Shown here one piece after another: positions 1 to 33,970 of a DNA stretch of 64,000 bases (position 1 is the stretch's first letter; each line of letters begins with the position of its first letter). The translations under genes and the position numbers were made by a program. Origin of the DNA: Eledone cirrhosa (taxonomy: Eukaryota; Mollusca; Cephalopoda; Octopoda; Eledonidae); NCBI GenBank assembly GCA_964016885.1, contig OZ024743.1, forward strand, positions 10,711,439-10,775,438, given 5' to 3'. The notes below the pieces were generated by a model. It was not told the origin of the DNA and did not search any database. It was given only the letters and a program-made list of their open reading frames with translations.

Positions 1-3000
1 TTGTTTCAACAGGTATAAATGAGGTGGTAGTTTGTTGTGTTTCAACAGGTATAAACAACGTGGTTGTTTGGTGTTGTTTCAACAGGTGTAAATAAGGTGG
101 TGTGTTGGGGTTGTTTCAGAAGGTATAAAAAAGGTGGTGGGTTGGGGTTGTTTCAGAAGGTATAAATAAATTGGTGGTTTGGTGTTGTTCCAACAGATAT
201 AAATAAGGTGGTCGTTTGGTGTTGTTTCAACAGGTATACATTTGGAGGTGGTTTGATGTTGTTTCAACAGGTATAAATAAGGTGGTGGTTTGGTGTTGTT
301 TCATCAAGCATAAATGAGGTGGTGGTTTGGTTTTGTTTCAACAGGTATACATTTGGTTATGGTTTGGTGTTGTTTCAACAGTTATAAATAAGGTGGTGGT
401 TTGGTGTTGTTTCAACGTGTATAAATTTGTTGATGGTTTGGTGTTGTTTCAACAGATATAAATAATGTGGTGGTTTGGTGTTATTTCAACAGGTATAAAT
501 GAGGTGGTGGTTAGGTGTTGTTTCAACAGGTATAAAGAAGGTGGTGGTTTGGTTTTGTTTCAACAGGTATAAATGAGGTGGTGGGGTGGTGTTGTTTCAG
601 CACGTATAAATAAGGTGGTGGGTTGGGCTTGTTTCAGAAGGTATAAATAAGGTGGTAGTTTGGGTTGTTTCAGCAGGTATAAATAAGGTGGTGGTTTGGT
701 GTTGTTTCAACAGGTATAAATGAGGTGGTGGTTTGGTGTTGTTTCAGCAGGTATAAATTTAGTGATGGTTTGGTGTTGTTTTAAACAGGTATAAATAAGG
801 TGTGGTTTGGTGTTGTTTCAACAGGTATAATTAGGTTGTGGTTTGTTGTTATTTCAACAGGTATAAATGAAGTGGTGCCTTGGGGTTGTTTCAGCAGGTA
901 TAAATGAGGTGGTGGTTTGGGGTTATTACAACAGGTATGAATAAGATGGTGGTGTGGTGTTGTTGCAACAGGTTTAAATAAGGTGGTGGTTTGGTGTTGT
1001 TTCAACAGGTATAAAGAAGGTGATGTTTTGGTGTTGTTTCAACAGGTATAAAGAAGGTGGTGGTTGTGTTTTGTTTCAACAGGTATAAAGAAGGTGGTGG
1101 GTTGGGGTTGTTTCAACAGGTATAAATTTGGTGATGGTTTGGTGTTGTTTCAACAGGTATAAAGAAGGTGGTGGTTTGGTGTTATTTCAACAGGTATAAA
1201 TGAGGTGGTGGTTTGTTGTTGTTTCAACAGGTATACATTTGGAGGTGGTTTGATGTTGTTTCAACAGGTATAAAAAGGGTGGTGGTTTGGTGTTGTTTCA
1301 ACAGGAATAAATAAGGTGGTGGTTTGGTTTTATTTCAACAGGTATAAAGGAGGTGGTGGTTTGGTGTTTTTTCAACAGGTATAAAGAAGTTGGTGGTTTG
1401 GTGTTGTTTCAACAGGTATAAATTTGTTGATGGTTTGGTGTTGTTTCAACAGGTATAAATAGGGTGGTGGTTTGGGGTTGCTTCAGAAGGTATAAAGAAG
1501 GTGGTGGGTTGGGGTTGTTTCAGAAGGTATAAATAAGGTGGTGGTTTGGGGGTTGTTTCAGCAGGTATAAATAAGGTGGTGGGTTGGGCTTGTTTCAGAA
1601 GGTATAAATAAGGTGGTAGTTTGGGTTGTTTCAGCAGGTATAAATAAGGTGGTGGTTTGGTGTTGTTTCAACAGGTATAAATGAGGTGGTGGTTTGGTGT
1701 TGTTTCAGCAGGTATAAATTTAGTGATGGTTTGGTGTTGTTTTGAACAGGTATAAATATCATGTGGTATGGTGTTGTTTCAACATGTATAATTAGGTTAT
1801 GGTTTGTTGTTATTTCAACAGGTATAAATGAAGTGGTGCCTTGGGGTTGTTTCAGCAGGTATAAAGAAGGTGGTGGTTTGGGGTTATTACAACAGGTATA
1901 AATAAGATGGTGGTGCGGTGTTGTTGCAACAGGTTTAAATAAGGTGTTGGTTTGGTGTTGTTTCAACAGATATAAATAAGGTGATGGTTTGGTGTTGTTT
2001 CAACAGGTATAAATAAGGTGGTGGTTTGTAGTTTTTTCAACAGGTATAAATAAGGTGGTAGTTTGTTGTTGTTTCAACAGGTATAAATAACGTGGTGGTT
2101 TGGTGTTGTTTCAACAGTTATAAATAAGGTGGTGTGTTGGGGTTGTTTCAGAAGGTATAAATAAGGTGGTGGTTTGGTGTTGTTCCAACAGGTATACATT
2201 TGGTGGTGGTTTGATGTTGTTTCAACAGGTATTAATAGGGTGGTGGTTTGGTGTTATTTCAACAGGTATAAATAAGGTGGTGGTTTGGAGTTGTTTCATC
2301 AAGCAAAAATGAGGTGGTGGTTTGGTGTTGTTTCAACAGGTATAAATTTGGTAATGGTTTAGTGTTGTTTCAACAGGTATAAAGAAGGTGGTGGTTTGGT
2401 GTTGTTTCAACAGGTATAAATTTGTTGATGGTTTGGTGTTGTTTCAACAGGTATAAATAAGGTGGTCGTTTGGTGTTATTTCAACAGGTATAAAGGAGGT
2501 GGTGGTTTGGTGTTGTTTCAACAGGTATAAATGAGGTGGTGGGGTGGTGTTGTTTCAGCATGTATAAATAAGGTGGTGGGGTGGTGTTGTTTCAGCATGT
2601 ATAAATAAGGTGGTGGTTTGGTTTTGTTTCAACAGGTATAAATAACGTGGTGGTTTGGTGTTGTTTCAACAGGTATAAATAGGGTGGTGTGTTGGGGTTG
2701 TTTCAGAAGGTATAAAGAAGGTGGTGGGTTGGGGTTGTTTCAGAAGGTATAAATAAGGTGGTGGTTTGGGGTTGTTTCAGCAGGTATAAACAAGGTGGTG
2801 GGTTGGGCTTGTTTCAGAAAGTATAAATAAGGTGGTAGTTTGGGTTGTTTCAGCAGGTATAAAGAAGGTGGTGGTTTGGTGTTGTTTCAACAGGTATAAA
2901 TAAGGTGGTGGGTTGGGGTTCTTTCAGCAGGTATAAATAAGGTGGTGGTTTGGGTTTGTTTCAGCAGGTATAAATAAGGTGGTTTGTTTGGGGTTGTTTC

Positions 3001-3254
3001 AGCAGGTATAAATTTAGTGATGATTTGGTGTTGTTTTGAACAGGTATAAATAAGGTGTGGTTTGGTGTTGTTTCAACAGGTATAAATAAGGTGGTGTGTT
3101 GGGGTTGTTTCAGAAGGTATAAATAAGGTGGTGGTTTGGGGTTGTTTCAGAAGGTATAAATAAGGTGGTGGTTTGGGGTTGTTTCAGCAGGTATAAATAA
3201 GGTGGTGGGTGGGGCTTGTTTCAGAAGGTATAAATAAGGGGGTATTTTGGGTTG

Positions 3255-4500
3255 TTTCAGAAGGTATAAATAAGGTGGTGGTTTGGGGTTGTTTCAGCAG
3301 GTATAAATAAGGTGGTGGGTGGGCTTGTTTCAGAAGGTATAAATAAGGGGGTATTTTGGGTTGTTTCAGCAGGTATAAATAAGGTGGTGGTTTGGTGTTG
3401 TTTCAACAGGTTTAAATGAGGTGGTGGTTGGGTGTTGTTTCAGCAGGTATAAATTTAGTGATGGTTTGGTGTTGTTTTGAACAGGTATAAATAAGGTGTG
3501 GTTTGGTGTTATTTCAACATTTATAAATGAGGTGGTGCCTTGGGGTTGTTTCAGCAGGTATAAATAAGGTGGTGGTTTGGGGTTATTACAACAGGTATAA
3601 ATAAGATGGTGGTGTGGTGTTGTTGCAACAGGTTTAAATAAGGTGGTGGTTAGGTGTTGTTTCAACAGGTATAAATAAGGTGGTGGTTTGGTGTTTTTTC
3701 AACAGGTATAAATAAGGTGGTGGGTTGGGGTTGTTTCAACAGGTATAAATTTGGTTATGGTTTGGTGTTGTTTCAACAGGTATAAACAAGGTGGTGGGTT
3801 GGTGTTATTTCAACAGGTATAAATGAGGTGGTGGTTTGGTGTTGTTTCAACTGGGATGAATTTGTTGATGGTTTGGTGTTGTTTCAACTGGTATATATAA
3901 GGTGGTCGTTTGCTGCTGTTTCAACAGGTATAAATTTGGTTATGGTTTGGTGTTGTTTCAACAGGTATAAATAAGGTGGTGGTTTGGTGTTGTTTCAACA
4001 GGTATAAAGAAGGTGGTGTTTTGGTTTTGTTTCAACAGGTATAAATGAGGTGGTGGGGTGGTGTTGTTTCAGCAGGTATAAATAAGGTGGTGGTTTGGTT
4101 TTGTTTCAACAGGTATAAATGAGGTGGTAGTTTGTTGTTGTTTCAACAGTTATAAATAACGTGGTGGTTTGGTGTTGTTTCAACAGGTATAAATAAGGTG
4201 GTGTGTTGGGGTTGTTTCAGAAGGTATAAATAAGGTGGTGGTTTGGTGTTGTTCCAACAGATATAAATAAGGTGGTCGTTTGGTGTTGTTTCAACAGGTA
4301 TACATTTGGTGGTGGTTTGATGTTGTTTCAACAGGTATAAATAGGGTGGTGGTTTGATGTTATTTCAACAGGTATAAATAAGGTTGTGGTTTGGTGTTGT
4401 TTCATCAAGCATAAATGAGGTGGTGGTTTGGTGTTGTTTCAACAGATATAAATGAGGTGGTGGTTTGGTGTTGTTTCAGCAGGTATAAATTTAGTGATGG
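3255..4500. repeat. Satellite higher-order block, left type, copy 1
   Basis: This segment recurs almost unchanged 3,057 bp downstream (about 6,312-7,557). A 300-bp part (3,366-3,665 and 6,423-6,722) has identical antisense translation. A landmark TTAGGTGTTG occurs at 3,650, 6,707 and 9,481, so a third, more mosaic copy exists. Unit types special to the left third include GTTTCAGAAGGTATAAA, GTTTCATCAAGCATAAATG and ATTACAACAGGTATAAA. Confidence 0.85.
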
Positions 4501-6311
4501 TTTGGTGTTGTTTTGAACAGGTATAAATAAAATGTGGTATGGTGTTGTTTCAACATGTATAATTAGGTTATGGTTTGTTGTTATTTCAACAGGTATTAAT
4601 GAAGTGGTGCCTTGGGGTTGTTTCAGCAGGTATAAAGAAGGTGGTGGTTTGGGGTTATTACAACAGGTTTAAATAAGATGGTGGTGTGGTGTTGTTGCAA
4701 CAGGTTTAAATAAGGTGTTGGTTTGGTGTTGTTTCAACAGATATAAATAAGGTGATGGTTTGGTGTTGTTTCAACAGGTATAAATAAGGTGGTGGTTTGG
4801 TGTTTTTTCAACAGGTATAAATAAGGTGGTAGTTTGTTGTTGTTTCAACAGGTATAAATAACGTGGTGGTTTGGTGTTGTTTCAACAGTTATAAATAAGG
4901 TGGTGTGTTGGGGTTGTTTCAGAAGGTATAAAGAAGGTGGTGGTTTGGTGTTGTTCCAACAGATATAAATAAGGTGGTCGTTTGGTGTTGTTTCAACAGG
5001 TATACATTTGGTGGTGGTTTGATGTTGTTTCAACAGGAATAAATAGGGTGGTGGTTTCATGTTATTTCAACAGGTATAAAGAAGGTTGTGGTTTGGTGTT
5101 GTTTCATCAAGCATAAATGAGGTGGTGGTTTGGTGTTGTTTCAACAGATATAAATTTGGTTATGGTTTGGTGTTGTTTCAACAGGTATAAATTTGCTGAT
5201 GGTTTGGTGTTGTCTCAACAGGTATAAACAAGGTGGTGGTTTGGTGTTATTTCAACAGGTATAAATGAGGTGGTGGTTTGGTGTTGTTTCAACAGGTATA
5301 AATAAGGTGGTGGTTTGGTTTTGTTTCAACAGGTATAAAGAAGGTGGTGGTTTGGTGTTGTTTCAACAGGTATAAATGAGGTGGTGGTTTGGTGTTGTTT
5401 CAACAGGTATAAATAAGGTGGTGGTTTGGTGTTGTTTCAACAGGTATAAATAAGGTGGTGGTTTGGTGTTGTTTCAACTGGTATAAATTTGGTGTTGTTT
5501 CAACAGGTATAAGTAAGGTGGTGGTTTGGTGTTGTTTCAACAGGTATCAATCTGTTGATGGTTTGTTGTTGTTTCAACAGGTATAAATGAGGTGGTGGTT
5601 TGGTGTTGTTTCAACAGGTATAAAGAAGGTGGTGGTTAGGTGTTGTTTCAACAGGTATAAACGAGGTGGTAGTTTGTTGTTGTTTCAACATGTATAAATA
5701 ACGTGGTGGTTTCGTTTTGTTTCAACTGGTATAAATAGGGTGGTTTGTTGGTGTTTTTTCAGAAGGTATAAAGAAGGTGGTGGGTTGGGGTTGTTTCAGA
5801 ACGTATAAAGAAGGTGGTGGTTTGGGGTTGTTTCAGCAGGTATAAATAAGGCGGTGGGTTGGGCTTGTTTCAGAAGGTATAAATAAGGTGGTGGTTTGGT
5901 GTTGTTTCAACAGGTATAAATTTGTTGATGGTTTGGTGTTGTTTCAACAGGAATAAATAAGGTGGTGGTTTGGTGTTATTTCAACAGGTATAAATGAGGT
6001 GATGGTTTGGTGTTGTTTCAACAGGTATAAATAAGGTGGTGGGGTGGTGTTGTTTCAGCATGTATAAATAAGGTGGTGGTTTGGTTTTGTTTCAACAGGT
6101 ATAAACGATGTGTTGAGGTGGTGTTGTTTCAACAGGTATAAATGATGTGGTAGTTTGTTGTTGTTTCAACAGGTATAAATAACGTGGTGGTCTGGTGTTG
6201 TTTCAACAGGTATAAAGAAGGTCGTGGGTTGGGGTTGTTTCAGAAGGTATAAATAAGGTGGTGGTTTGGGGTTGTTTCAGCAGGTATAAATAAGGTGGTG
6301 CGTGGGGCTTG

Positions 6312-7557
6312 TTTCAGAAGGTATAAATAAGGTGGTGGTTTGGGGTTGTTTCAGCAGGCATAAATAAGGTGGTGGGTGGGCTTGTTTCAGAAGGTATAAA
6401 TAAGGGGGTATTTTGGGTTGTTTCAGCAGGTATAAATAAGGTGGTGGTTTGGTGTTGTTTCAACAGGTTTAAATGAGGTGGTGGTTGGGTGTTGTTTCAG
6501 CAGGTATAAATTTAGTGATGGTTTGGTGTTGTTTTGAACAGGTATAAATAAGGTGTGGTTTGGTGTTATTTCAACATTTATAAATGAGGTGGTGCCTTGG
6601 GGTTGTTTCAGCAGGTATAAATAAGGTGGTGGTTTGGGGTTATTACAACAGGTATAAATAAGATGGTGGTGTGGTGTTGTTGCAACAGGTTTAAATAAGG
6701 TGGTGGTTAGGTGTTGTTTCAACAGGTATAAATAAGGTGGTGGTTTGGTGTTTTTTCAACAGGTATAAATAAGGTGGTGGGTTGGGGTTGTTTCAACAGG
6801 TATAAATTTGGTTATGGTTTGGTGTTGTTTCAACAGGTATAAACAAGGTGGTGGGTTGGTGTTATTTCAACAGGTATAAATGAGGTGGTGGTTTGGTGTT
6901 GTTTCAACTGGGATGAATTTGTTGATGGTTTGGTGTTGTTTCAACTGGTATATATAAGGTTGTCGTTTGGTGATGTTTCAACAGGTATAAATTTGGTTAT
7001 GGTTTGGTGTTGTTTCAACAGGTATAAATAAGGTGGTGGTTTGGTGTTGTTTCAACAGGTATAAAGAATGTGGTGGTTTGGTTTTGTTTCAACAGGTATA
7101 AATGAGGTGGTGGGGTGGTGTTGTTTCAGCAGGTATAAATAAGGTGGTGGTTTGGTTTTGTTTCAACAGGTATAAATGAGGTGGTAGTTTGTTGTTGTTT
7201 CAACAGGTATAAATAAGGTGGTGGTTTGGTGTTGTTTCAACAGGTATAAATAAGGTGGTGTGTTGGGGTTGTTTCAGAAGGTATAAATAAGGTGGTGGTT
7301 TGGTGTTCTTCCAACAGATATAAATAAGGTGGTCGTTTGGTGTTGTTTCAACAGGTATATATTTGGTGGTGGTTTGATGTTGTTTCAACAGGTATAAATA
7401 GGGTGGTGGTTTGATGTTATTTCAACAGGTATAAAGAAGGTTGTGGTTTGGTGTTGTTTCATCAAGCATAAATGAGGTGGTGGTTTGGTGTTGTTTCAAC
7501 AGATATAAATGAGGTGGTGGTTTGGTGTTGTTTCAGCAGGTATAAATTTAGTGATGG
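6312..7557. repeat. Satellite higher-order block, left type, copy 2
   Basis: Near-identical partner of about 3,255-4,500 at a fixed offset of 3,057 bp. Similarity breaks at about 7,560-7,580, where the order of unit variants jumps to a run otherwise seen at about 5,040-5,160, then returns to the 4,600-type order. This mosaic pattern points to recombination between units rather than one simple duplication. Confidence 0.85.
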
Positions 7558-8679
7558 TTTGGTGTTGTTTTGAACAGGTATAAATAGGGTGGTGGTTTCA
7601 TGTTATTTCAACAGGTATAAAGAAGGTTGTGGTTTGGTGTTGTTTCATCAAGCATAAATGAGGTGGTGGTTTGGTGTTGTTTCAACAGATATAAATTTGG
7701 TTATGGTTTGGTGTTGTTTCAACAGGTATAAATGAAGTGGTGCCTTGGGGTTGTTTCAGCAGGTATAAAGAAGGTGGTGGTTTGGGGTTATTACAACAGG
7801 TATAAATAAGATGGTGGTGTGGTGTTGTTGCAACAGGTTTAAATAAGGTGTTGGTTTGGTGTTGTTTCAACAGATATAAATAAGGTGATGGTTTGGTGTT
7901 GTTTCAACAGGTATAAATAAGGTGGTGGTTTGGTGTTTTTTCAACAGGTATAAATAAGGTGGTAGTTTGTTGTTGTTTCAACAGGTATAAATAACGTGGT
8001 GGTTTGGTGTTGTTTCAACAGTTATAAATAAGGTGGTGTGTTGGGGTTGTTTCAGAAGGTATAAATAAGGTGGTGGTTTGGTGTTGTTCCAACAGATATA
8101 AATCAGGTAGTCGTTTGGTGTTGTTTCAACAGGTATACATTTGGTGGTGGTTTGATGTTGTTTCAACAGGTATAAATAGGGTGGTGGTTTCATGTTATTT
8201 CAACAGGTATAAAGAAGGTTGTGGTTTGGTGTTGTTTCATCAAGCATAAATGAGGTGGTGGTTTGGTGTTGTTTCAACAGATATAAATTTGGTTATGGTT
8301 TGGTGTTGTTTCAACAGGTATAAATTTGCTGATGGTTTTGTGTTGTTTCAACAGGTATAAATTTGCTGATGGTTTGGTGTTGTTTCAACAGGTATAAACA
8401 AGGTGGTGGTTTGGTGTTATTTCAACAGGTATAAATGAGGTGGTGGTTTGGTGTTGTTTCAACAGGTATAAATAAGGTGGTGGTTTGGTTTTGTTTCAAC
8501 AGGTATAAAGAAGGTGGTGGTTTGGTGTTGTTTCAACAGGTATTAATGAGGTGGTGGTTTGGTGTTGTTTCAACAGGTATAAAGAAGGTGGTGGTTTGGT
8601 TTTGTTTCAACAGGTATAAATAAGGTGGTGGTTTGGTGTTGTTTCAACTGGTATAAATAAGGTGTTCGTTTGGTGCTGT

Positions 8680-9270
8680 TTCAACAGGTATAAACGAGGT
8701 GGTAGTTTGTTGTTGTTTCAACATGTATAAATAACGTGGTGGTCTGGTGTTGTTTCAACAGGTATAAATAGGGTGGTTTGTTGGTGTTTTTTCAGAAGGT
8801 ATAAAGAAGGTGGTGGGTTGGGGTTGTTTCAGAAGGTATAAAGAAGGTGGTGGTTTGGGGTTGTTTCAGCAGGTATAAATAAGGCGGTGGGTTGGGCTTG
8901 TTTCAGAATGTATAAATAAGGTGGTAGTTTGGGTTGTTTCAGCAGGTATAAATAAGGTGGTGTTTTGGTGTTATTTCAACAGGTATAAATGAGGTGGTGG
9001 TTTGGTGTTGTTTCAGCAGGTATAAATTTGGTGATGGTTTGGTGTTGTTTTGAACAGGTATAAATAAGGTGTGGTTTGGTGTTGTTTCAACAGGTGTAAT
9101 TAGGTTGCGGTTTGTTGTTATTTCAACAGGTATAAATGAAGTAGTGCCTTGGGGTTGTTTCAGCAGGTATAAATAAGGTGGTGGTTTGGGGTTATTACAA
9201 CAGGTATAAATAAGATGGTGGTGTGGTGTTGTTGCAACAGGTTTAAATAAGGTGGTGGTTTGGTGTTGTT
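8680..9270. repeat. Satellite segment duplicated at 10,812-11,400
   Basis: The landmark TAAACGAGGTGGTAG occurs at 5,658, 8,691 and 10,823. The segment after 8,691 is repeated 2,132 bp further on with the same order of variants, including the AGAAGGTATAAAGAAGG units, the 35-bp AAGGTGTGGTTTGG unit and the GAAGTAGTGCCTTGG unit. It is a further higher-order copy in the left third of the array. Confidence 0.75.
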
Positions 9271-12200
9271 TCAACAGGTATAAAGAAGGTGATGGTTTGG
9301 TGTTGTTTTGAACAGGTATAAATAAGGTGTGGTTTGGTGTTATTTCAACATTTATAAATGAGGTGGTGCCTTGGGGTTGTTTCAGCAAGTATAAATAAGG
9401 TGGTGGTTTGGGGTTATTACAACAGGTATAAATAAGATGGTGGTGTGGTGTTGTTGCAACAGGTTTAAATAAGGTGGTGGTTAGGTGTTGTTTCAACAGG
9501 TATAAATAAGGTGGTGGTTTGGTGTTTTTTCAACAGGTATAAATAAGGTGGTGGGTTGGGGTTGTTTCAACAGGTATAAATTTGGTTATGGTTTGGTGTT
9601 GTTTCAACAGGTATAAACAAGGTGGTGGGTTGGTGTTATTTCTACAGGTATAAATGAGGTGGTGGTTTGGTGTTGTTTCAACTGGGATGAATTTGTTGAT
9701 GGTTTGGTGTTGTTTCAACTGGTATAAATAAGGTGGTCGTTTGGTGCTGTTTCAACAGGTATAAATTTGGTTATGGTTTGGTGTTGTTACAACAGGTATA
9801 AATAAGGTGGTGGTTTGGTGTTGTTTCAACAGGTATAAAGAAGGTGGTGGTTTGGTTTTGTTTCAACAGGTATAAATGAGGTGGTGGGGTGGTGTTGTTT
9901 CAGCAGGTATAAATAAGGTGGTTGATTGGTTTTGTTTCAACAGGTATAAATGAGGTGGTAGTTTGTTGTTGTTTCAACAGGTATAAATAACGTGGTGGTT
10001 TGGTGTTGTTTCAACAGGTATAAATAAGGTGGTGTGTTGGGGTTGTTTCAGAAGGTATAAATAAGGTGGTGGTTTGGTGTTGTTCCAACAGATATAAATA
10101 AGGTGGTCGTTTGGTGTTGTTTCAACAGGTATACATTTGGTGGTGGTTTGATGTTGTTTCAACAGGTATAAATAGGGTGGTGGTTTCATGTTATTTCAAC
10201 AGGTATAAAGAAGGTTGTGGTTTGGTGTTGTTTCATCAAGCATAAATGACGTGGTGGTTTGGTGTTGTTTCAACAGATATAAATTTGGTTATGGTTTGGT
10301 GTTGTTTCAACAGGTATAAATTTGCTGATGGTTTGGTGTTGTTTCAACAGGTATAAACAAGGTGGTGGTTTGGTGTTATTTCAACAGGTATAAATGAGGT
10401 GGTGGTTTGGTGTTATTTCAACAGGTATAAAGAAGGTGGTGGTTTGGTTTTGTTTCAACAGGTATAAAGAAGGTGGTGGTTTGGTGTTGTTTCAACAGGT
10501 ATAAATGAGGTGGTGGTTTGGTGTTGTTTCAACAGGTATAAATAAGGTGGTGGTTTGGTTTTGTTTCAACAGGTATAAATAAGGTGGTGGTTTGGTGTTG
10601 TTTCAACTGGTATAAATAAGGTGGTCGTTTGGTGCTGTTTCAACAGGTATAAATTTGGTGTTGTTTCAACAGGTATAAGTAAGGTGGTGGTTTGGTGTTG
10701 TTTCAACAGGTATCAATCTGTTGATGGTTTGGTGTTGTTTCAACAGGTATAAATGAGGTGGTGGTTTGGTGTTGTTTCAACAGGTATAAAGAAGGTGGTG
10801 GTTTGGTGTTGTTTCAACAGGTATAAACGAGGTGGTAGTTTGTTGTTGTTTCAACATGTATAAATAACGTGGTGTTTTGGTGTTGTTTCAACAGGTATAA
10901 ATAGGGTGGTTTGTTGGTGTTTTTTCAGAAGGTATAAAGAAGGTGGTGGGTTGGGGTTGTTTCAGAAGGTATAAAGAAGGTGGTGGTTTGGGGTTGTTTC
11001 AGCAGGTATAAATAAGGCGGTGGGTTGGGCTTGTTTCAGAAGGTATAAATAAGGTGGTAGTTTGGGTTGTTTCAGCAGGTATAAATAAGGTGGTGTTTTG
11101 GTGTTATTTCAACAGGTATAAATGAGGTGGTGGTTTGGTGTTGTTTCAGCAGGTATAAATTTGGTGATGGTTTGGTGTTGTTTTGAACAGGTATAAATAA
11201 GGTGTGGTTTGGTGTTGTTTCAACAGGTGTAATTAGGTTGCGGTTTGTTGTTATTTCAACAGGTATAAATGAAGTAGTGCCTTGGGGTTGTTTCAGCAGG
11301 TATAAATAAGGTGGTGGTTTGGGGTTATTACAACAGGTATAAATAAGATGGTGGTGTGGTGTTGTTGCAACAGGTTTAAATAAGGTGGTGGTTTGGTGTT
11401 GTTTCCACAGGTATAAAGAAGGTGATGGTTTGGTGTTGTTTCAACAGGTATAAATAAGGTGGTGGTTTGGTGTTTTTTCAACAGGTATAAATAAGGTGGT
11501 GGGTTGGGGTTGTTTCAACAGGTATAAATTTGGTGATGGTTTGGTGTTGTTTCAACAGGTATAAACAAGGTGGTGGTTTGGTGTTATTTCAACAGGTATA
11601 AATGAGGTGGTGGTTTTGTTTTGTTTCAACAGGTATACATGAGGTGTTGGGGTGCTGTTGTTTCAACAGGTATAAATGAGGTGGTAGTTTGTTGTTGTTT
11701 CAACAGGTATAAATAAGGTGGTGGTTTGGTTTTGTTTCAACAGGTATAAAGAAGGTGGTGGTTTAGTTTTGTTTCAACAGGTATAAATAAGGTGGTGGTT
11801 TGGTTTTGTTACAACTGGTATAACTTTGTTGATGGTTTGGTGTTGTTTCAACAGGTATAAAGAAGCTGGTGGTTTGGTGTTGTTTCAACAGGTATAAATT
11901 AGGTAATCGTTTGGGGTTGTTTCAACAGGTATAAATTTGTTGGTGGTTTGGTGTTGTTTCAACAGGTATAAAGAAGGTGATGGTTTAGGGTTGTTTCAAG
12001 AGGTATAAATAAGCTGATGGTTTAGGCTTGTTTTAGCAGGTATAAAGAAGGTGGTGGTTTGGTGTTATTTCAACAGATATAAATAAGGTGGTGGTTTGGG
12101 TTGTTTCAACAGGTATAAATGAGGTGGTGATTTGGTGTTGTTTCAACAGGTATAAAGAAGGTGGTGTTTTGGTGTCGTTTCAAAAGGTATAAATGAGGTG

Positions 12201-15695: not shown

Positions 15696-15904
15696 AAACT
15701 TTGTGGTGGTTTGGTGTTGTTTCAACAGGTATAAATGAGGTGGTGATTTGGTGTTGTTTCAACAGGTATATATTTGGTGATGGTTTGGTGTTATTTCAAT
15801 AGTTATAAATAAGGTGGTGGTTTGGGTTGTTTCAAAAGGTAAAAATGAGGTGGTGGCTTGGTGTTGTTTCAGCAGGTATAAATAAGGTGGTGGTTTGGTG
15901 TTGT

Positions 15905-21200: not shown

Positions 21201-24200
21201 GTGTTTTGGTGTTGTTTCAACAGGTATAAATTTGGTGATGGTTTGGTATTGTTTCAATAGGTATAAATAAGGTGGTGGTTTGGTTTTATTTCAACAGGTA
21301 TAAATAAAGTGGTGGTTTGGTGTTGTTTCAGCAGGTATAAATAAGGTGGTGGTTTGGTGTAATTTCAACAGGTATAAATTTGGTGGTGGTTTGGTGTTGT
21401 TTCAAAACGTATAAATAAGGTGGTGGTCTGGTTTTGTTTCAGCAGGTATAAATAAGGTGGTGGTTTGGTGTTATTTCAACAGGTATAAATTTGGTGGTGG
21501 TTTGGGTTGTTTCAACAGGTATAAATGAGGTGGTGGTTTGGTGTTGTTTCAACAGGTATAAATGAGGTGGTGGTTTGGTGTTGTTTCAACAGGTAGAAAT
21601 GAGGTGGTGGTTTGGTGTTGTTTTAACAGGTATAAATTTGGTGATGATTTGGTGTTGTTTCAACAGGTATAAAGAAGGTGGTGGTTTGGTTTTATTTCAA
21701 CAGGTATCAATAAAGTGATGGTTTGGTTTATTTCAACAGGTATAAATAAGGTGGTGGTTTGGTGTTGTTTCAACAGGTATAAATAAGGTGGTGGTTTGGT
21801 GTTATTTCAACAGGTATAAATGAGGTGGTGGTTTGGTGTTGTTTCAACAGGTATAAATGAGGTGGTGGTTTGGTGTTGTTTTAACAGGTATAAATTTGGT
21901 GATGCTTTGGTGTTGTTTCAACAGGTATAAATAAGGTGGTGGTTTGGTGTTATTTCAACAGATATAAATAAGGTGATGGTTTGGTGTTGTTTCAACTGGT
22001 ATATACTTTGTGGTGGTTTGGTGTTGTTTCAACAGGTATAAATGAGGTGGTGATTTGGTGTTGTTTCAACAGGTATATATTTGGTGATGGTTTGGTGTTA
22101 TTTCAATAGTTATAAATAAGGTGGTGGTTTGGGTTGTTTCAAAAGGTATGAATGAGGTGGTGGCTTGGTGTTGTTTCAACAGGTATAAATAAGGTGGTGG
22201 TTTGGTGTTGTTTCAACAGGTATAAATTTGGTGATGGTTTGGTGTTATTTCAACAGGTATAAATAAGGTGGTGGTTTGGTGTTGTTTTAACAGGTATAAA
22301 TAAAGTGATGGTTTGGGTTGTTTCAACAGGTATAAAGAAGGTGGTGGTTTGGTGCTGTTTCAACAGGTATAAATTTGGTGATGGCTTGGTGTTGTTTCAA
22401 CAGGTATAAACTTTATGGTGGTTTGGTGTTGTTTCAACAGGTATAAATTTGGTGATGGTTTGGTGTTATTTTAACAGGTATAAATAAGGTGGTGATTTGG
22501 GTTGTTTCAAAAGGAATAAATAAGGTAGTGGTTTGGGTTGTTTCAAACGGTATAAATAAGGTGGTGGTTTGGTGTTGTTTTAACAGGTATAAATTTGGTG
22601 ATGGTTTGGTGTTATTTGAATAGGTATAAATAAGGTGGTGGTTTGGGTTGTTTCAAAAGGTATGAATGAGGTGGTGGCTTGGTCTTTTTTCAACAGGTAT
22701 AAATGAGGTGGTGGTTTGGTGTTGTTTCAACAGGTATAAATAAGGTGGTGGCTTGGTGTTGTTTCAGCAGGTATAAATAAGGTGGTGGTTTGGTGTTGTT
22801 TCAACAGGTATAAATTTGGTGATGTTTTGGTGTTATTTCAACAGGTATAAATATGGTGGTGGTTTGGTGTTGTTTTAACAGGTATAAATAAAGTGATGGT
22901 TTGGGTTGTTTCAACAGGTATAAAGAAGGTGGTGATTTGGTGCTGTTTCAACAGGTATAAATTTGGTGATGGTTTGGTGTTGTTTCAACAGGTATAAACT
23001 TTGTGGTGGTTTGGTGTTGTTTCAACAGGTATAAATTTGGTGATGGTTTGGTGTTATTTTAACAGGTATAAATAAGGTGGTGGTTTGGGTTGTTTCAAAA
23101 GGTATAAATAAGGTGGTGGTTTGGTGTTGTTTCAACAGGTATAAATAAGGTTGTGATTTGCTGTTGTTTCAACAGGTATAAATGAGGTGGTGGTTTGGTG
23201 TTGTTTCAACAGGTATAAATTTTGGTGATGGTTTAGTGTAGTTTCAACAGGTATAAATTTGGTGATGGTTTGGTGTTGTTTCAACAGGTATAAATAAGGT
23301 GGTGGTTTGGTGTTATTTCAACAGGTATAAAGAAGGTGGTGGTTTGGTGTTGTTTTAACAGGTATAAATTTGGTGATGGTTTGGTGTTGTTTCAACAGGT
23401 ATAAATAAGGTGGTGGTTTGGTTTTATTTCAACAGGTATAAATAAAGTGGTGGTTTGGTGTTGTTTCAAAAGGTATAAATAAGGTGGTGGTTTGGTTTTG
23501 TTTCAGCAGGTATAAATAAGGTGGTGGTTTGGTGTTATTTCAACAGGTATAAATTTGGTGGTAGTTTGGTGTTGTTTCAAAACGTATAAATAAGGTGGTG
23601 TTTTGGTTTTGTTTCAGCAGGTATAAATAAGGTGGTGGTTTGGTGTTATTTCAACAGGTATAAATTTGGTGGTGGTTTGGGTTGTTTCAACAGGTATAAA
23701 CGAGGTGGTGGTTTGGTGTTGTTTCAACAGGTATAAATGAGATGGTGGTTTGGTGTTGTTTCAACAGGTAGAAATGAGGTGTTGGTTTGGTGTTGTTTTA
23801 ACAGGTATAAATTTGGTGATGGTTTGGTGTTGTTTTAACAGGTATAAAGAAGGTGGTGGTTTGGTTTTATTTCAACAGGTATAAATAAAGTGATGGTTTG
23901 GTTTATTTCAACAGGTATAAATAAGGTGGTGGTTTGGTGTTGTTTCAACAGGTATAAACAAGGTGGTGGTTTGGTGTTATTTCAACAGGTATAAATAAGG
24001 TGGTGGTTTGGTTTTGTTTCAACAGGTATAAACTTTGTGGTGGTTTGGTGTTGTTTCAACAGGTATAAATGAGGTGGTGATTTGGTGTTGTTTCAACAGG
24101 TATATATTTGGTGATGGTTTGGTGTTATTTCAATAGTTATAAATAAGGTGGTGGTTTGGGTTGTTTCAAAAGGTATGAATGAGGTGGTGGCTTGGTGTTG

Positions 24201-25309
24201 TTTCAGCAGGTATAAATAAGGTGGTGGTTTGGTGTTGTTTCAACAGGTATAAATTTGGTGATGTTTTGGTGTTATTTCAACAGGTATAAATATGGTGGTG
24301 GTTTGGTGTTGTTTTAACAGGTATAAATAAAGTGATGGTTTGGGTTGTTTCAACAGGTATAAAGAAGGTGGTGATTTGGTGCTGTTTCAACAGGTATAAA
24401 TTTGGTGATGGTTTGGTGTTGTTTCAACAGGTATAAACTTTGTGGTGGTTTGGTGTTGTTTCAACAGGTATAAATTTGGTGATGGTTTGGTGTTATTTTA
24501 ACAGGTATAAATAAGGTGGTGGTTTGGGTTGTTTCAAACGGTATAAATAAGGTGGTGGTTTGGTGTTGTTTCAACAGGTATAAATAAGGTGGTGGTTTGG
24601 TGTTGTTTTAACAGGTATAAATTTGGTGATGGTTTGGTGTTATTTGAATAGGTATAAATAAGGTGGTGGTTTGGGTTGTTTCAAAAGGTATGAATGAGGT
24701 GGTGGCTTGGTCTTTTTTCAACAGGTATAAATGAGGTGGTGGTTTGGTTTTGTTTCAACAGGTATAAATTTGGTGATGGTTTGGTGTTATTTGAATAGGT
24801 ATAAATAAGGTGGTGGTTTGGGTTGTTGCAAAAGGTATGAATGACGTGATGTCTTGGTCTTTTTTCAACAGGTATAAATGAGGTGGTAGTTTGGTGTTGT
24901 TTCAACAGGTATAAATGAGGTGGTGATTTGGTGTTGTTTCAACAGGTATATATTTGGTGATTTTTTGGTGTTGTTTCAACAGGTATAAATAAGGTGATGG
25001 TTTGGTGTTGTTTCAACAGGTATAAATTTGGTGATGGTTTGGTGTTGTTTCAACAGGTATAAATGAGGTGGTGGTTTGGTGTTGTTTCAACCGGTATAAA
25101 CTTTGTGGTGGTTTGGTCTTGTTTCAACAGGTATAAATGAGGTGGTGGTTTGGTTTTTTTTCAACAGGTATAAATGAGGTGGTGGTTTGGGGCTGTTTCA
25201 ACAGGGATAAATGTGTTGATGGTTTGGTGTTTTTTCAACAGGTATAAATTTGGTGATGTTTTGGTGTTGTTTCAACAGGTATAAAGAGGGTGGTGGTTTG
25301 GTGTTGTTT

Positions 25310-28300
25310 CAACAGGTATAAAGAGGGTGGTGGTTTGGTGTTGTTTCAACAGGTATAAATGAGGTGCTGGTTTGGTATTATTTCAACAGAGTATAAATAA
25401 GATGGTGATTTGGGGTTGTTTCAACAGGTATAAAGAAGGTGGTGGTTTGGTGTTGTTTCAACAGGTATAAATGAGGTGGTGGTTTGGTGTTGTTTCAACA
25501 GGTATAAACGAGGTGGTGGTTTGGTGTTGTTTCAACAGGTATAAATGAGGTGGTGGTTTGGTGTTGTTTCAACAGGTATAAATTTGGTGATGATTTGGTG
25601 TTATTTCAACAGGTATAAATAAGGTGATGGTTTGGTGTTGTTTCAACAGGTATAAATGAGGTGGTGGTTTGGTGTTGTTTCAACAGGTATAAACGAGGTG
25701 GTGGTTTGGTGTTGTTTCAACAGGTATAAATGAGGTGGTGGTTTGGTGTTGTTTCAACAGGTATAAATTTGGTGATGATTTGGTGTTATTTCAACAGGTA
25801 TAAATAAGGTGGTGGTTTGGTGTTGTTTCAACAGGTATAAAGGAGGTGGTGGTTTGGTGTTGTTTCAACAGGTATAAACGAGGTGGTGGTTTGGTGTTGT
25901 TTCAGCAGGTATAAATAAGGTGGTGATTTGGTGTTGTTTAAACAGGTATAAATAAGGTGGTGGTTTGGTGTTGTTTAAACAGGTATAAATAAGGTGGTGG
26001 TTTGGTGTTGTTTCAACAGGTATAAATAAGGTGGTGTTTTGGTGTTATTTCAACAGGTATAAATTTGGTGGTGGTTTGCTGTTGTTTCAACAGGTATAAA
26101 TAAGGTGGTGGTTTGTGTTGTTTCAACAGGTATAAATGAGGTGGTGATTTGGTGTTGTTTCAACAGGTACAAATAAGGTGGTGGTTTGGTGTTGTTTCAA
26201 CAGGTATAAATGAGGTGGTGGTTTTGTGTTGTTTCAACAGGTATAAATGAGGTGGTGGTTTGGTGTTGTTTTAACAGGTATAAATTTGGTGATGGTTTGG
26301 TGTTGTTTCAACAGGTATAAATAAGGTGGTGGTTTGGTTTTATTTCAACAGGTATAAATATAGTGGTGGTTTGGTGTTGTTTCAAAAGGTATAAATAAGG
26401 TGGTGTTTTGGTGTTATTTCAACAGGTATAAATTTGGTGATGATTTGCTGTTGTTTCAACAGGTATAAATAAGGTGGGGGTTTGGGTTGTTTCAACAGGT
26501 ATAAATGAGGTGGTGATTTGGTGTTGTTTCAACTGGTACAAATAAGATGGTAGTTTGGTGTTGTTTCAACAGGTATAAATGAGGTGGTGATTTGGTGTTG
26601 TTTCAACAGGTATATATTTGGTGATGGTTTGGTGTTGTTTCAACAGGTATAAATAAGGTGATGGTTTGGTGTTGTTTCAACAGGTATAAATTTGGTGATG
26701 TTTTGGTGTTGTTTCAACAGGTATAAATGAGGTGGTGGTTTGGTGTTGTTTCAACCGGTATAAACTTTGTGGTGGTTTGGTCTTCTTTCAACAGGTATAA
26801 ATGAGGTGGTGGTTTGGTTTTGTTTCAACAGGTATAAATGAGGTGGTGGTTTGGGGCTGTTTCAACAGGGATAAATGTGTTGATGGTTTGGTGTTTTTTC
26901 AACAGGTATAAATTTGGTGATGGTTTGGTGTTTTTTCAACAGGTATACATTTGGCGATAGTTTGGTGTTGTTTCAACAGGTATAAATGAGGTGGTGGTTT
27001 GGTGTTGTTTCAACAGGTATAAAGAGGGTGGTGGTTTGGTGTTGTTTCAACAGGTATAAATGAGGTGCTGGTTTGGTATTATTTCAACAGAGTATAAATA
27101 AGATGGTGATTTGGGGTTGTTTCAACAGGTATAAAGAAGGTGGTGGTTTGGTGTTGTTTCAACAGGTATAAATGAGGTGGTGGTTTGGTGTTGTTTCAAC
27201 AGGTATAAACGAGGTGGTGGTTTGGTGTTGTTTCAACAGGTATAAATGAGGTGGTGGTTTGGTGTTGTTTCAACAGGTATAAATTTGTTGATGATTTGGT
27301 GTTATTTCAACAGGTATAAATGAGGTGGTGGTTTGGTGTTGTTTCAACAGGTATAAATTTGGTGATGATTTGGTGTTATTTCAACAGGTATAAATAAGGT
27401 GGTGGTTTGGTGTTGTTTCAACAGGTATAAAGGAGGTGGTGGTTTGGTGTTGTTTCAACAGGTATAAACGAGGTGGTCGTTTGGTGTTGTTTCAACAGGT
27501 ATAAAGGAGGTGGTGGTTTGGTGTTGTTTCAACAGGTATAAACGAGGTGGTGGTTTGGTGTTGTTTCAGCAGGTATAAATAAGGTGGTGATTTGGTGTTG
27601 TTTAAACAGGTATAAATAAGGTGGTGGTTTGGTGTTGTTTAAACAGGTATAAATAAGGTGGTGGTTTGGTGTTGTTTCAACAGGTATAAATAAGGTGGTG
27701 TTTTGGTGTTATTTCAAAAGGTATAAATGAGGTGGTGGTTTGGTGTTGTTTTAACAGGTATAAATTTGGTGATGGTTTGGTGTTGTTTCAACAGGTATAA
27801 ATAAGGTGGTGGTTTGGTTTTATTTCAACAGGTATAAATATAGTGGTGGTTTGGTGTTGTTTCAAAAGGTATAAATAAGGTGGTGTTTTGGTGTTATTTC
27901 AACAGGTATAAATTAGGTGGTGATTTGCTGTTGTTTCAACAGGTATAAATAAGGTGGGGGTTTGGGTTGTTTCAACAGGTATAAATGAGGTGGTGATTTG
28001 GTGTTGTTTCAACAGGTACAAATAAGGTGGTAGTTTGGTGTTGTTTCAACAGGTATAAATGAGGTGGTGGTTTGGTGTTGTTTCAACAGGTAGAAATGAG
28101 GTGGTGTTTTGGTGTTGTTTTAACAGGTATAAATTTGGTGATTGTTTGGTGTTGTTTCAACAGGTATAAAGAAGGTGGTGGTTTGGTTTTATTTCAACAG
28201 GTATAAATAAAGTGATGATTTGGTTTATTTCAACAGGTATAAATAAGGTGGTGGTTTGGTGTTGTTTCAACAGGTATAAATAAGGTGGTGGTTCGGTGTT

Positions 28301-29527
28301 ATTTCAACAGGTATAAATAAGGTGGTGGTTTGGTGTTATTTCAACAGGTATAAATTTGGTGATGGTTTGGTGTTATTTCAATAGGTATAACGAAGGTGGT
28401 GGTTTGGGTTGTTTCAAAAGGTATGAATGAGGTGGTGGGGTGTTGTTGTTTCAACAGGTATAAATTTGGTGATGGTTTGGTGTTGTTTCAAAATGTATAA
28501 ATGAGGTGGTGTTTTGGTGTTGTTTCAACAGGTATAAATTTGGTGATGGTTTGGTGTTATTTCAATAGGTATAAAGAAGGTGGTGGTTTGGGTTGTTTCA
28601 AAAGGTATGAATGAGGTGGTGGGGTGTTGTTGTTTCAACAGGTATAAATTTCGTGATGGTTTGGTGTTATTTTAACAGGTATAAATAAGGTGGTGGTTTG
28701 GTGTTGTTTTAACAGGTATACAGAAAGTGATGGTTTGGGTTGTTTCAACAGGTATAAAGAAGGTGGTGGTTTGGTGCTGTTTCAACAGGTATAAATTTGG
28801 TAATGGTTTATTGTTGTTTCAACAGGTATAAACTTTGTGGTGGTTTGGTGTTGTTTCAACAGGTATAAATTTGGTGATGGTTTGGTGTTATTTTAACAGG
28901 TATAAATAAGGTGATGGTTTGGGTTGTTTCAAAATGTATAAATGAGGTGGTGGTTTGGTGTTGTTTCAACAGGTCTAAATGAGGTGGTGGTTTGGTGTTG
29001 TTTCAACAGGTATAAATTTGTTGATGGTTTGGTGTTGTTTCAACAGGTATAAAGAAGGTGGTGGTTTGGTGTTGTTTCAACAGGTTTAAATGAGGTGGTG
29101 GTTTGGTGTTGTTTCAACAGGTATAAATTTGTTGATGGTTTGGTGTTGTTTCAACAGGTATAAATTTGGTGATGGTTTGGTGTTGTTTCAACAGGTATAA
29201 ATAAGGTGGTGGTTTGGTGTTGTTTCAACAGGTATAAATAAGGTGGTGGTTTGGTGTTGTTTCAACAGGTATAGATAAGGTGGTGGTTTGAGGTTGTTTC
29301 AACAGGTATAAATAAGGTGGTGGTTTGAGGTTGTTTCAACAGGTATAAATAAGGTGGTGGTTTGGGGTTGTTTCAACAGGTATAAATAAGGTGGTGGTTT
29401 GGGGTTGTTTCAACAGGTATATATTTGGTGGTGGCTTGGGGTTGTTTCAACAGTATAATTAAGGTGATGGTTTGGGGTTGTTTCAACAGGTATATATTTG
29501 GTGGTGGTTTGGTGTTGTTTCAACAGG
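25310..29527. repeat. Satellite 4.2-kb duplication, copy A
   Basis: The longest and best-preserved higher-order unit. Landmark GAGGTGCTGGTTTGG lies at 25,361 and 27,062 here, and at 29,609 and 31,273 in copy B. Offsets to copy B are 4,248 bp early on, 4,211 bp in the middle and 4,322 bp at the end. The changes are one unit (37 bp) and three units (111 bp). Each copy also contains an internal 1.66-1.70-kb sub-duplication. Confidence 0.9.
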
Positions 29528-29557
29528 TATAAATGAGGTGGTGGTTTGGTGTTGTTT

Positions 29558-32500
29558 CAACAGGTATAAAGAGGGTGGTGGTTTGGTGTTGTTTCAACAG
29601 GTATAAATGAGGTGCTGGTTTGGTATTATTTCAACAGAGTATAAATAAGATGGTGATTTGGGGTTGTTTCAACAGGTATAAAGAAGGTGGTGGTTTGGTG
29701 TTGTTTCAACAGGTATAAATGAGGTGGTGGTTTGGTGTTGTTTCAACAGGTATAAACGAGGTGGTGGTTTGGTGTTGTTTCAACAGGTATAAATGAGGTG
29801 GTGGTTTGGTGTTGTTTCAACAGGTATAAATTTGGTGATGATTTGGTGTTATTTCAACAGGTATAAATAAGGTGATGGTTTGGTGTTGTTTCAACAGGTA
29901 TAAATGAGGTGGTGGTTTGGTGTTGTTTCAACAGGTATAAACGAGGTGGTGGTTTGGTGTTGTTTCAACAGGTATAAATGAGGTGGTGGTTTGGTGTTGT
30001 TTCAACAGGTATAAATTTGGTGATGATTTGGTGTTATTTCAACAGGTATAAATAAGGTGGTGGTTTGGTGTTGTTTCAACAGGTATAAAGGAGGTGGTGG
30101 TTTGGTGTTGTTTCAACAGGTATAAACGAGGTGGTGGTTTGGTGTTGTTTCAGCAGGTATAAATAAGGTGGTGATTTGGTGTTGTTTAAACAGGTATAAA
30201 TAAGGTGGTGGTTTGGTGTTGTTTAAACAGGTATAAATAAGGTGGTGGTTTGGTGTTGTTTCAACAGGTATAAATAAGGTGGTGTTTTGGTGTTATTTCA
30301 ACAGGTATAAATTTGGTGGTGGTTTGCTGTTGTTTCAACAGGTATAAATAAGGTGGTGGTTTGTGTTGTTTCAACAGGTATAAATGAGGTGGTGATTTGG
30401 TGTTGTTTCAACAGGTACAAATAAGGTGGTGGTTTGGTGTTGTTTCAACAGGTATAAATGAGGTGGTGGTTTGGTGTTGTTTTAACAGGTATAAATTTGG
30501 TGATGGTTTGGTGTTGTTTCAACAGGTATAAATAAGGTGGTGGTTTGGTTTTATTTCAACAGGTATAAATATAGTGGTGGTTTGGTGTTGTTTCAAAAGG
30601 TATAAATAAGGTGGTGTTTTGGTGTTATTTCAACAGGTATAAATTTGGTGATGATTTGCTGTTGTTTCAACAGGTATAAATAAGGTGGGGGTTTGGGTTG
30701 TTTCAACAGGTATAAATGAGGTGGTGATTTGGTGTTGTTTCAACTGGTACAAATAAGGTGGTAGTTTGGTGTTGTTTCAACAGGTATAAATGAGGTGGTG
30801 ATTTGGTGTTGTTTCAACAGGTATATATTTGGTGATGGTTTGGTGTTGTTTCAACAGGTATAAATAAGGTGATGGTTTGGTGTTGTTTCAACAGGTATAA
30901 ATTTGGTGATGGTTTGGTGTTGTTTCAACAGGTATAAATGAGGTGGTGGTTTGGTGTTGTTTCAACCGGTATAAACTTTGTGGTGGTTTGGTCTTCTTTC
31001 AACAGGTATAAATGAGGTGGTGGTTTGGTTTTGTTTCAACAGGTATAAATGAGGTGGTGGTTTGGGGCTGTTTCAACAGGGATAAATGTGTTGATGGTTT
31101 GGTGTTTTTTCAACAGGTATAAATTTGGTGATGGTTTGGTGTTTTTTCAACAGGTATACATTTGGCGATAGTTTGGTGTTGTTTCAACAGGTATAAATGA
31201 GGTGGTGGTTTGGTGTTGTTTCAACAGGTATAAAGAGGGTGGTGGTTTGGTGTTGTTTCAACAGGTATAAATGAGGTGCTGGTTTGGTATTATTTCAACA
31301 GAGTATAAATAAGATGGTGATTTGGGGTTGTTTCAACAGGTATAAAGAAGGTGGTGGTTTGGTGTTGTTTCAACAGGTATAAATGAGGTGGTGGTTTGGT
31401 GTTGTTTCAACAGGTATAAACGAGGTGGTGGTTTGGTGTTGTTTCAACAGGTATAAATGAGGTGGTGGTTTGGTGTTGTTTCAACAGGTATAAATTTGTT
31501 GATGATTTGGTGTTATTTCAACAGGTATAAATGAGGTGGTGGTTTGGTGTTGTTTCAACAGGTATAAATTTGGTGATGATTTGGTGTTATTTCAACAGGT
31601 ATAAATAAGGTGGTGGTTTGGTGTTGTTTCAACAGGTATAAAGGAGGTGGTGGTTTGGTGTTGTTTCAACAGGTATAAACGAGGTGGTCGTTTGGTGTTG
31701 TTTCAACAGGTATAAAGGAGGTGGTGGTTTGGTGTTGTTTCAACAGGTATAAACGAGGTGGTGGTTTGGTGTTGTTTCAGCAGGTATAAATAAGGTGGTG
31801 ATTTGGTGTTGTTTAAACAGGTATAAATAAGGTGGTGGTTTGGTGTTGTTTAAACAGGTATAAATAAGGTGGTGGTTTGGTGTTGTTTCAACAGGTATAA
31901 ATAAGGTGGTGTTTTGGTGTTATTTCAAAAGGTATAAATGAGGTGGTGGTTTGGTGTTGTTTTAACAGGTATAAATTTGGTGATGGTTTGGTGTTGTTTC
32001 AACAGGTATAAATAAGGTGGTGGTTTGGTTTTATTTCAACAGGTATAAATATAGTGGTGGTTTGGTGTTGTTTCAAAAGGTATAAATAAGGTGGTGTTTT
32101 GGTGTTATTTCAACAGGTATAAATTTGGTGGTGATTTGCTGTTGTTTCAACAGGTATAAATAAGGTGGGGGTTTGGGTTGTTTCAACAGGTATAAATGAG
32201 GTGGTGATTTGGTGTTGTTTCAACAGGTACAAATAAGGTGGTAGTTTGGTGTTGTTTCAACAGGTATAAATGAGGTGGTGGTTTGGTGTTGTTTCAACAG
32301 GTAGAAATGAGGTGGTGTTTTGGTGTTGTTTTAACAGGTATAAATTTGGTGATTGTTTGGTGTTGTTTCAACAGGTATAAAGAAGGTGGTGGTTTGGTTT
32401 TATTTCAACAGGTATAAATAAAGTGATGATTTGGTTTATTTCAACAGGTATAAATAAGGTGGTGGTTTGGTGTTGTTTCAACAGGTATAAATAAGGTGGT

Positions 32501-33848
32501 GGTTCGGTGTTATTTCAACAGGTATAAATAAGGTGGTGGTTTGGTGTTATTTCAACAGGTATAAATTTGGTGATGGTTTGGTGTTATTTCAATAGGTATA
32601 AAGAAGGTGGTGGTTTGGGTTGTTTCAAAAGGTATGAATGAGGTGGTGGGGTGTTGTTGTTTCAACAGGTATAAATTTGGTGATGGTTTGGTGTTGTTTC
32701 AAAATGTATAAATGAGGTGGTGTTTTGGTGTTGTTTCAACAGGTATAAATTTGGTGATGGTTTGTTGTTATTTCAATAGGTATAAAGAAGGTGGTGGTTT
32801 GGGTTGTTTCAAAAGGTATGAATGAGGTGGTGGGGTGTTGTTGTTTCAACAGGTATAAATTTCGTGATGGTTTGGTGTTATTTTAACAGGTATAAATAAG
32901 GTGGTGGTTTGGTGTTGTTTTAACAGGTATAAAGAAAGTGATGGTTTGGGTTGTTTCAACAGGTATAAAGAAGGTGGTGGTTTGGTGCTGTTTCAACAGG
33001 TATAAATTTGGTAATGGTTTATTGTTGTTTCAACAGGTATAAACTTTGTGGTGGTTTGGTGTTGTTTCAACAGGTATAAATTTGGTGATGGTTTGGTGTT
33101 ATTTTAACAGGTATAAATAAGGTGATGGTTTGGGTTGTTTCAAAATGTATAAATGAGGTGGTGGTTTGGTGTTGTTTCAACAGGTCTAAATGAGGTGGTG
33201 GTTTGGTGTTGTTTCAACAGGTATAAATTTGTTGATGGTTTGGTGTTGTTTCAACAGGTATAAAGAAGGTGGTGGTTTGGTGTTGTTTCAACAGGTTTAA
33301 ATGAGGTGGTGGTTTGGTGTTGTTTCAACAGGTATAAATTTGTTGATGGTTTGGTGTTGTTTCAACAGGTATAAAGAAGGTGGTGGTTTGGTGTTGTTTC
33401 AACAGGTTTAAATGAGGTGGTGGTTTGGTTTTGTTTCAACAGGTAGAAATGAGGTGGTGATTTGGTGTTGTTTTAACAGGTATAAATTTGGTGATGGTTT
33501 GGTGTTGTTTCAACAGGTATAAATAAGGTGGTGGTTTGGTGTTGTTTCAACAGGTATAAATAAGGTGGTGGTTTGGTGTTGTTTCAACAGGTATAAATAA
33601 GGTGGTGGTTTGAGGTTGTTTCAACAGGTATAAATAAGGTGGTGGTTTGAGGTTGTTTCAACAGGTATAAATAAGGTGGTGGTTTGGGGTTGTTTCAACA
33701 GGTATAAATAAGGTGGTGGTTTGGGGTTGTTTCAACAGGTATATATTTGGTGGTGGCTTGGGGTTGTTTCAACAGTATAATTAAGGTGATGGTTTGGGGT
33801 TGTTTCAACAGGTATATATTTGGTGGTGGTTTGGTGTTGTTTCAACAG
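29558..33848. repeat. Satellite 4.2-kb duplication, copy B
   Basis: Near-identical partner of about 25,310-29,527, ending almost at the array edge. It shares one-off variants such as ATACATTTGGCGATAG (26,944 and 31,155) and the short unit CAACAGTATAATTAAGG (29,451 and 33,773 region). The very low divergence suggests this is the most recently amplified part of the array. Confidence 0.9.
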
Positions 33849-33970
33849 CTATAAAGGAGGTGGTTTCCAAATGTGTGAAAGTGGTGTCTGGTTATTGTTT
33901 TTACAAAAGGTGTGAATGTGGTGGTGGTTTGGTGTTGTTTCAACAGGTATGAATGTGGTGATAGGTTACT
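33849..33970. repeat. Degenerate right edge of the satellite array
   Basis: The last three or so units are strongly diverged (TTTCCAAATGTGTGAAAG, TTTTTACAAAAGGTGTGAATG, then one near-normal unit and GGTATGAATGTGGTGATAGG). The sequence then becomes unrelated, starting with a GAT-rich stretch. Diverged terminal units at an array edge are expected when homogenisation by unequal exchange weakens at the boundary. Confidence 0.9.

Follow-up and report, generated by a model that had tools for sequence, protein, structure and literature searches.

Identification and extent of the array

The 64,000-bp stretch analyzed here (the window; C4:10,711,439-10,775,438, C4 being contig OZ024743.1 with a length of 378,849,418 bp) contains part of a tandem array that, taken as a whole, is very probably a non-coding, single-locus giant minisatellite of a cephalopod-like genome, grown in place by block copying. 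TRF, a tandem-repeat finder of the kind proposed as a check in the first-pass annotation, recovered a period of 37 bp in the window as a single array on the forward strand at positions 1-33,864 (917.8 copies, 86% matches, score 48,783). When TRF was applied to a 264-kb region consisting of the window and 100 kb taken from either side, the complete array was found at C4:10,696,991-10,745,302, spanning 48.3 kb and 1308.6 copies (approximately 1,309 units), both the array length and the block structure described below being those of one assembly. An approximate scan of the window with the 17-mer GTTTCAACAGGTATAAA (up to three mismatches) gave 909 forward matches and no reverse match, and the spacing between anchors was exactly 37 in 790 of 912 cases. 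These results agree with the first-pass annotation, which had described an uninterrupted array of about 900 units in a single orientation, starting before the window; the array begins 14,448 bp to the left of the window start. The right end had been placed at 33,970, which overshoots the clean array by 106 bp and the degenerate edge by about 10 bp.

Both edges of the array were sharp. On the left, the first unit was 0.81 like the consensus and the second 0.95, and on the right the clean end at 33,864 was followed by merely about 2.5 diverged units (33,869-33,960, forward strand, delimited from TRF and the sequence). Since the ends of tandem arrays are expected to be more diverged and less homogenised, according to the available text of PMC12692304, the sharp edges count against our preferred explanation.

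Restriction to a single locus

The assembly scanned comprised 2,984,417,623 bp in 1582 contigs. Genome-wide repeat counts can be lower bounds, but here they were exactly equal to the local counts for all four probes: 528 for a 17-mer, 620 for a degenerate 26-mer, 249 for a 22-mer from the other half of the unit, and 1052 for a 25-mer with up to three mismatches. None of the four probes had a reverse-strand match in the genome, and the backwards-read controls returned one match for the 17-mer and none for the other three. The 37-bp unit is thus confined to one locus of this assembly, at up to three mismatches over 25 bp, which identifies the array as a single-locus giant minisatellite rather than a dispersed satellite. 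As expected, an exact unit probe was found in neither viral nor prokaryote contigs.

The first-pass annotation had called the array a satellite. Its description of a long array of 37-bp units stands, but the repeat is not genome-wide. A dispersed family would have related units at several loci, and all 1052 matches of the 25-mer lay inside the array; a centromeric satellite would be found on many chromosomes, and the unit occupied one locus in the assembly. It is accordingly extremely unlikely that the array is one block of a satellite family, whether genome-wide or centromeric, and this reading is already contradicted within this assembly. Such a family would fit a long, uninterrupted array in one orientation, and this genome does have a 59-bp satellite that behaves as a multi-locus family, but the 37-bp unit has no copy elsewhere at the sensitivity given above, and the array sits 10.7 Mb into a 378.8-Mb contig.

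Composition and variability of the units

The mean identity of the 1308 full units to the consensus was 92.0%, a distance of approximately 8%. Most units were 37 bp long (n = 1184), and the others were 36 bp (n = 104), 38 bp (n = 18), or 26 bp (n = 2). Throughout the array, no unit carried more than one inserted base, indicating that no mobile element interrupts the 48 kb. The two 26-bp units, near window positions 5471 and 10637, had an identical 11-base loss, which could be either the marker of one duplicated block or the outcome of repeated deletion.

In the first-pass annotation, a short word was said to vary among a few states between two halves that are both kept. Positions 18-20 were indeed TAA, TGA, TTT, or GAA in 813 of the 918 window units and in 1142 of the 1308 units of the whole array, and all four states were present in every tenth of the array. 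Nevertheless, other sites vary strongly as well, and the G-rich half is less well kept than had been stated, with G1, G25, and T34 deviating in approximately 14-22% of units. In the window, the changes A19T and A20T co-occurred (r = 0.90) and A19T was linked to G25A (r = 0.65), suggesting that the states at positions 18-20 may mark old lineages of units. TTT-type units appeared to shun adjacency (lag-1 autocorrelation of -0.13, null sd of 0.027), with a null that is too narrow because of block duplication.

The array had a GC content of 36-39% and one G-rich strand; across the eight 4-kb bins filled entirely by the array, the GC skew was 0.66-0.70. CpG was observed 118 times against 890 expected from the base content, and the observed/expected ratio was below that of the right flank (0.27).

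Probable growth of the array by block duplication

Exact duplicates of at least 150 bp covered 60.7% of the array. When the unit order was shuffled 20 times, the coverage averaged 0.03% and reached at most 0.64%. There were 44 exact duplicates of at least 200 bp; half of their offsets exceeded a median of 3.8 kb, and the smallest was 368 bp. The longest was a 1213-bp block at 26,702-27,914 of the window, repeated at 30,913-32,125 (offset 4211 bp), followed by a 936-bp block at 25,289-26,224, repeated at 29,537-30,472 (offset 4248 bp), and a block of 649 bp (offset 6172 bp); a 601-bp block at 3303-3903 was repeated at 6360-6960 (offset 3057 bp). The 1213-, 936-, and 601-bp blocks were all on the forward strand. 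The 1213-bp block is part of a tandem block duplication of approximately 4.2 kb near the right end of the array, the two copies of which aligned over 4253 columns with 37 mismatches and 40 gap positions (98.2% identity). Two further aligned block pairs were 89.6% and 96.7% identical.

Neighboring units were only slightly more alike than expected. The similarity of adjacent units was 0.8640 compared with 0.8610 (sd 0.0009) in random order (200 shuffles), and identical neighbors made up 1.6% of cases compared with 0.75% in shuffles, indicating a minor component of short-range duplication. Long exact duplicates at kilobase offsets, together with this near-background similarity of neighbors, point to duplication of multi-kilobase blocks, and not to unit-by-unit slippage, as the mode of growth, as far as can be judged from one assembled sequence. 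Replication slippage by one unit or a few at a time seems decidedly improbable as the main route of expansion: the roughly twofold excess of identical neighbors and a 184-bp exact duplicate at an offset of five units (185 bp) would agree with it, but neither the neighbor similarity nor the long duplicates at kilobase offsets do. A higher-order repeat of fixed period was also considered and rejected. Among lags of 1-699 units, the lag richest in identical units was 114 (6.8%, compared with 1.6% for adjacent units), which matches the block duplication at the right end, and no sharp peak was seen at short lags.

The exact duplicates of 1213 and 936 bp are such as mis-assembly could make, and the assembler could in principle have distorted a real array, inflating or scrambling its length or its block structure. 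We regard this as improbable, although the least so of the alternatives. The 48.3-kb array contains no N, and the only Ns in the 264-kb region are two 5-kb stretches, each more than 45 kb away from the array. The duplicates are nested, with many offsets and identities, and the mismatches and gaps between the copies of the 4.2-kb pair argue that it is not a plain assembly copy. Therefore, a plain duplication artefact is not suggested.

Under growth in place by block copying, a chance tandem duplication of 37 bp might have arisen in DNA without a recognised host gene. Unequal exchange involving sister chromatids or homologues, or break repair that copies between some tens and a few hundred units at a time, would then account for its expansion and continuing turnover. 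The tandem block of approximately 4.2 kb near the right end would be the most recent-looking large step. More tentatively, the strongly G-rich strand may assist the process by stalling replication.

Sequence conservation and possible function

The first-pass annotation had described one half of the unit as conserved, and the raw counts suggested selection on it. Positions T2, T3, A6, and T37 deviated in 0.0-1.3% of units, both in the left part of the array (391 units) and in the window part (917 units), whereas A19 deviated in 39-45%. The per-position variability of the two parts was highly correlated (Spearman 0.93). Because the two profiles are alike through belonging to the same lineage, changes were counted by Fitch parsimony on a tree instead. 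The tree was built from 482 distinct units, which represent all 1308 units except the two of 26 bp (1306 units); it rests on only 37 columns and is noisy.

On this tree, most of the apparent selection was lost. Among a total of 578 changes, T positions had a median of 8.5, with four changes at T2, two at T3, and four at T37, and T3 was the only T position below P = 0.01 (P = 0.009, uncorrected). A6, with seven changes, was ordinary among A positions (median of 12; P not below 0.01). G positions changed most (median of 21.5), and G1, inside the core, was one of the two most changeable sites with 43 changes. Positions in the same context still differed, with 4 changes at T2 compared with 15 at T29 (both GTT) and 2 at T3 compared with 9 at T30 (both TTT), which speaks against a reading based purely on composition and ancestry. 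Taken together, the conserved half mostly reflects fewer changes at A and T positions, or base composition, and shared ancestry, and weak constraint may act on it in addition.

Two functional readings were weighed against these counts. In one, the array is a set of binding sites in which selection holds a TT(G/A)TTTCA core for a putative binding protein with a regulatory or chromatin-nucleating role. The near-invariance of T2, T3, A6, and T37 in both parts of the array and their shared variability profile would favor it, but the parts share ancestry, only one position fell below P = 0.01 before correction, A6 was not unusual, and the core itself includes one of the most changeable sites; we thus consider binding-site selection quite unlikely. 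The more elaborate proposal is a seedless, locus-born 48-kb array whose core is kept by a sequence-specific binding protein and which serves a single cephalopod chromosome as its own chromatin or replication element; it is less likely still. The motif TGTTTCA looks similar to forkhead-type sites and to the upstream motif of nematode piRNAs, and TATAAA looks similar to a TATA box.

Other candidate functions were rejected. The array contained no canonical G3 quadruplex motif, although GGG occurred 375 times and four GG runs were present in 622 of the 1308 units, and G positions were the most changeable. For hairpins, the folding of one three-unit stretch did not stand out from that of shuffles (z of 0.56 and 0.45 for the two strands). 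The longest open reading frames in the 48.3 kb were 82 aa on the forward strand and 196 aa on the reverse strand, and the array is non-coding. A sequence-specific function is not needed to explain the array.

Comparison with known tandem repeats

Four 16- to 18-mers of the unit had no match in the main texts of 5.39 million open-licence papers, in agreement with the first-pass annotation, in which the unit was not recognised as a named satellite. Among the titles and abstract starts listed for tandem repeats of cephalopods, octopuses, and mollusks, none named this unit, and the main text of a repeat annotation of Octopus vulgaris, in the version available (PMC13282606), contained no words beginning with satellite-, minisatellite-, or centromer-. 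Minisatellites have units of 11-60 bp, usually in arrays of a few hundred base pairs, according to the available text of PMC12692304, which also covers low-copy satellite DNA families and puts variability at usually up to about 10%. The 37-bp unit falls within this size class and the array is non-coding with units approximately 8% from the consensus, but its 48.3 kb exceeds the usual length, which is not a strict criterion because the source says 'usually'. The same text models long arrays as growing from dispersed short 'seed' arrays, and here no seed was found at any other locus of the assembly within the sensitivity of the probes. By unit class, the array looks like a minisatellite that is unusually large and otherwise ordinary.

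The array resembles CEB1, a hypervariable G-rich minisatellite at one locus, in its unit size, strand asymmetry, mixture of unit variants, and single location. Human CEB1-1.8 consists of 42 polymorphic repeats, each 36-43 bp in length and G-rich on one strand, as given in the available text of PMC2673046. The present array differs in its size (approximately 1,309 units and 48 kb compared with 1.8 kb), and in its GC content of 36-39%, and it lacks the canonical G3 motif of CEB1-like quadruplex minisatellites. Compared with the 59-bp satellite of the same genome, it is likewise a long, short-unit array in a single orientation, but the 59-bp satellite is multi-locus and more homogeneous (96% matches).

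The array is a clean example from nature of a very long repeat confined to one place; since the 2.98-Gb assembly yielded no related copies, the history of its units can be read without traffic from other loci. Its block structure makes it a testable case of short units growing into tens of kilobases in the absence of dispersed seeds. The array is also a candidate polymorphic marker. None of this implies a function.

Genomic neighborhood and other features of the assembly

The right flank (33,961-64,000 of the window) was AT-rich, with microsatellites and, by eye in the lists of open reading frames, mobile-element-like scraps. Among its 169 open reading frames of at least 50 aa, the 10 tried against Pfam gave no match above the curated cut-off; no tRNA gene was found in the window, and no Rfam match reached the gathering score in 33,865-64,000. 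In the 264-kb region, 84 open reading frames of at least 110 aa were left after low-complexity filtering, including frames that looked retroelement-like by eye. No host gene around the array was recognised in the 10 flank frames tried against Pfam or in the by-eye reading of the 264 kb.

TRF identified two other arrays longer than 1 kb within approximately 100 kb of the main array. A 51-bp array of 24.7 copies (C4:10,691,633-10,692,893) lies 4 kb to the left of the main array and adjoins a frame of 1061 aa that resembles a gypsy-type retroelement by eye. A 49-bp array of 128 copies with 98% matches (C4:10,826,352-10,832,623) is likewise restricted to a single locus, with all 76 places of an exact probe found there in forward orientation. 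One of the four random 10-kb control stretches (out of 36 places drawn; a small sample) consisted wholly of the 59-bp array, which fills C4:173,856,392-173,866,391. An exact probe of this satellite matched 3664 times, with no reversed match, on two contigs or more (C2 and C4 among them), and the 59-bp repeat is a candidate for the major satellite of the genome. Together, the neighboring and control arrays suggest that long arrays of short units are common here, which makes the 37-bp array less surprising. At the ends of C4, the last 1.5 kb (right end) consisted of a 49-bp tandem repeat (CACCACTACCCCAG...), possibly a subtelomeric satellite, and the first 1.5 kb consisted of N.

The mollusc-type haemocyanin domain PF14830 had 39 matches in this genome and none in the 14 control genomes. 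One haemocyanin exon scored 854.9 bits over 390 residues against PDB 1js8_A, which we take to be octopus haemocyanin; the scores against what are presumably squid haemocyanins were lower, at 738.3 (4yd9_C) and 733.8 (6r83, best domain). For a second exon, the scores were 658.6 bits (4yd9_C), 655.6 (best single domain of 6r83), and 650.0 (1js8_A). The haemocyanin matches support a cephalopod host, and an octopod is plausible, although the two exons disagree on the latter. The haemocyanin domains apparently form three near-equal sets at C1:173.75-173.91 Mb and two mirror-image sets at C26:21.93-22.02 Mb, with two more on C27, and these sets could represent either recent gene duplication or retained haplotypes.
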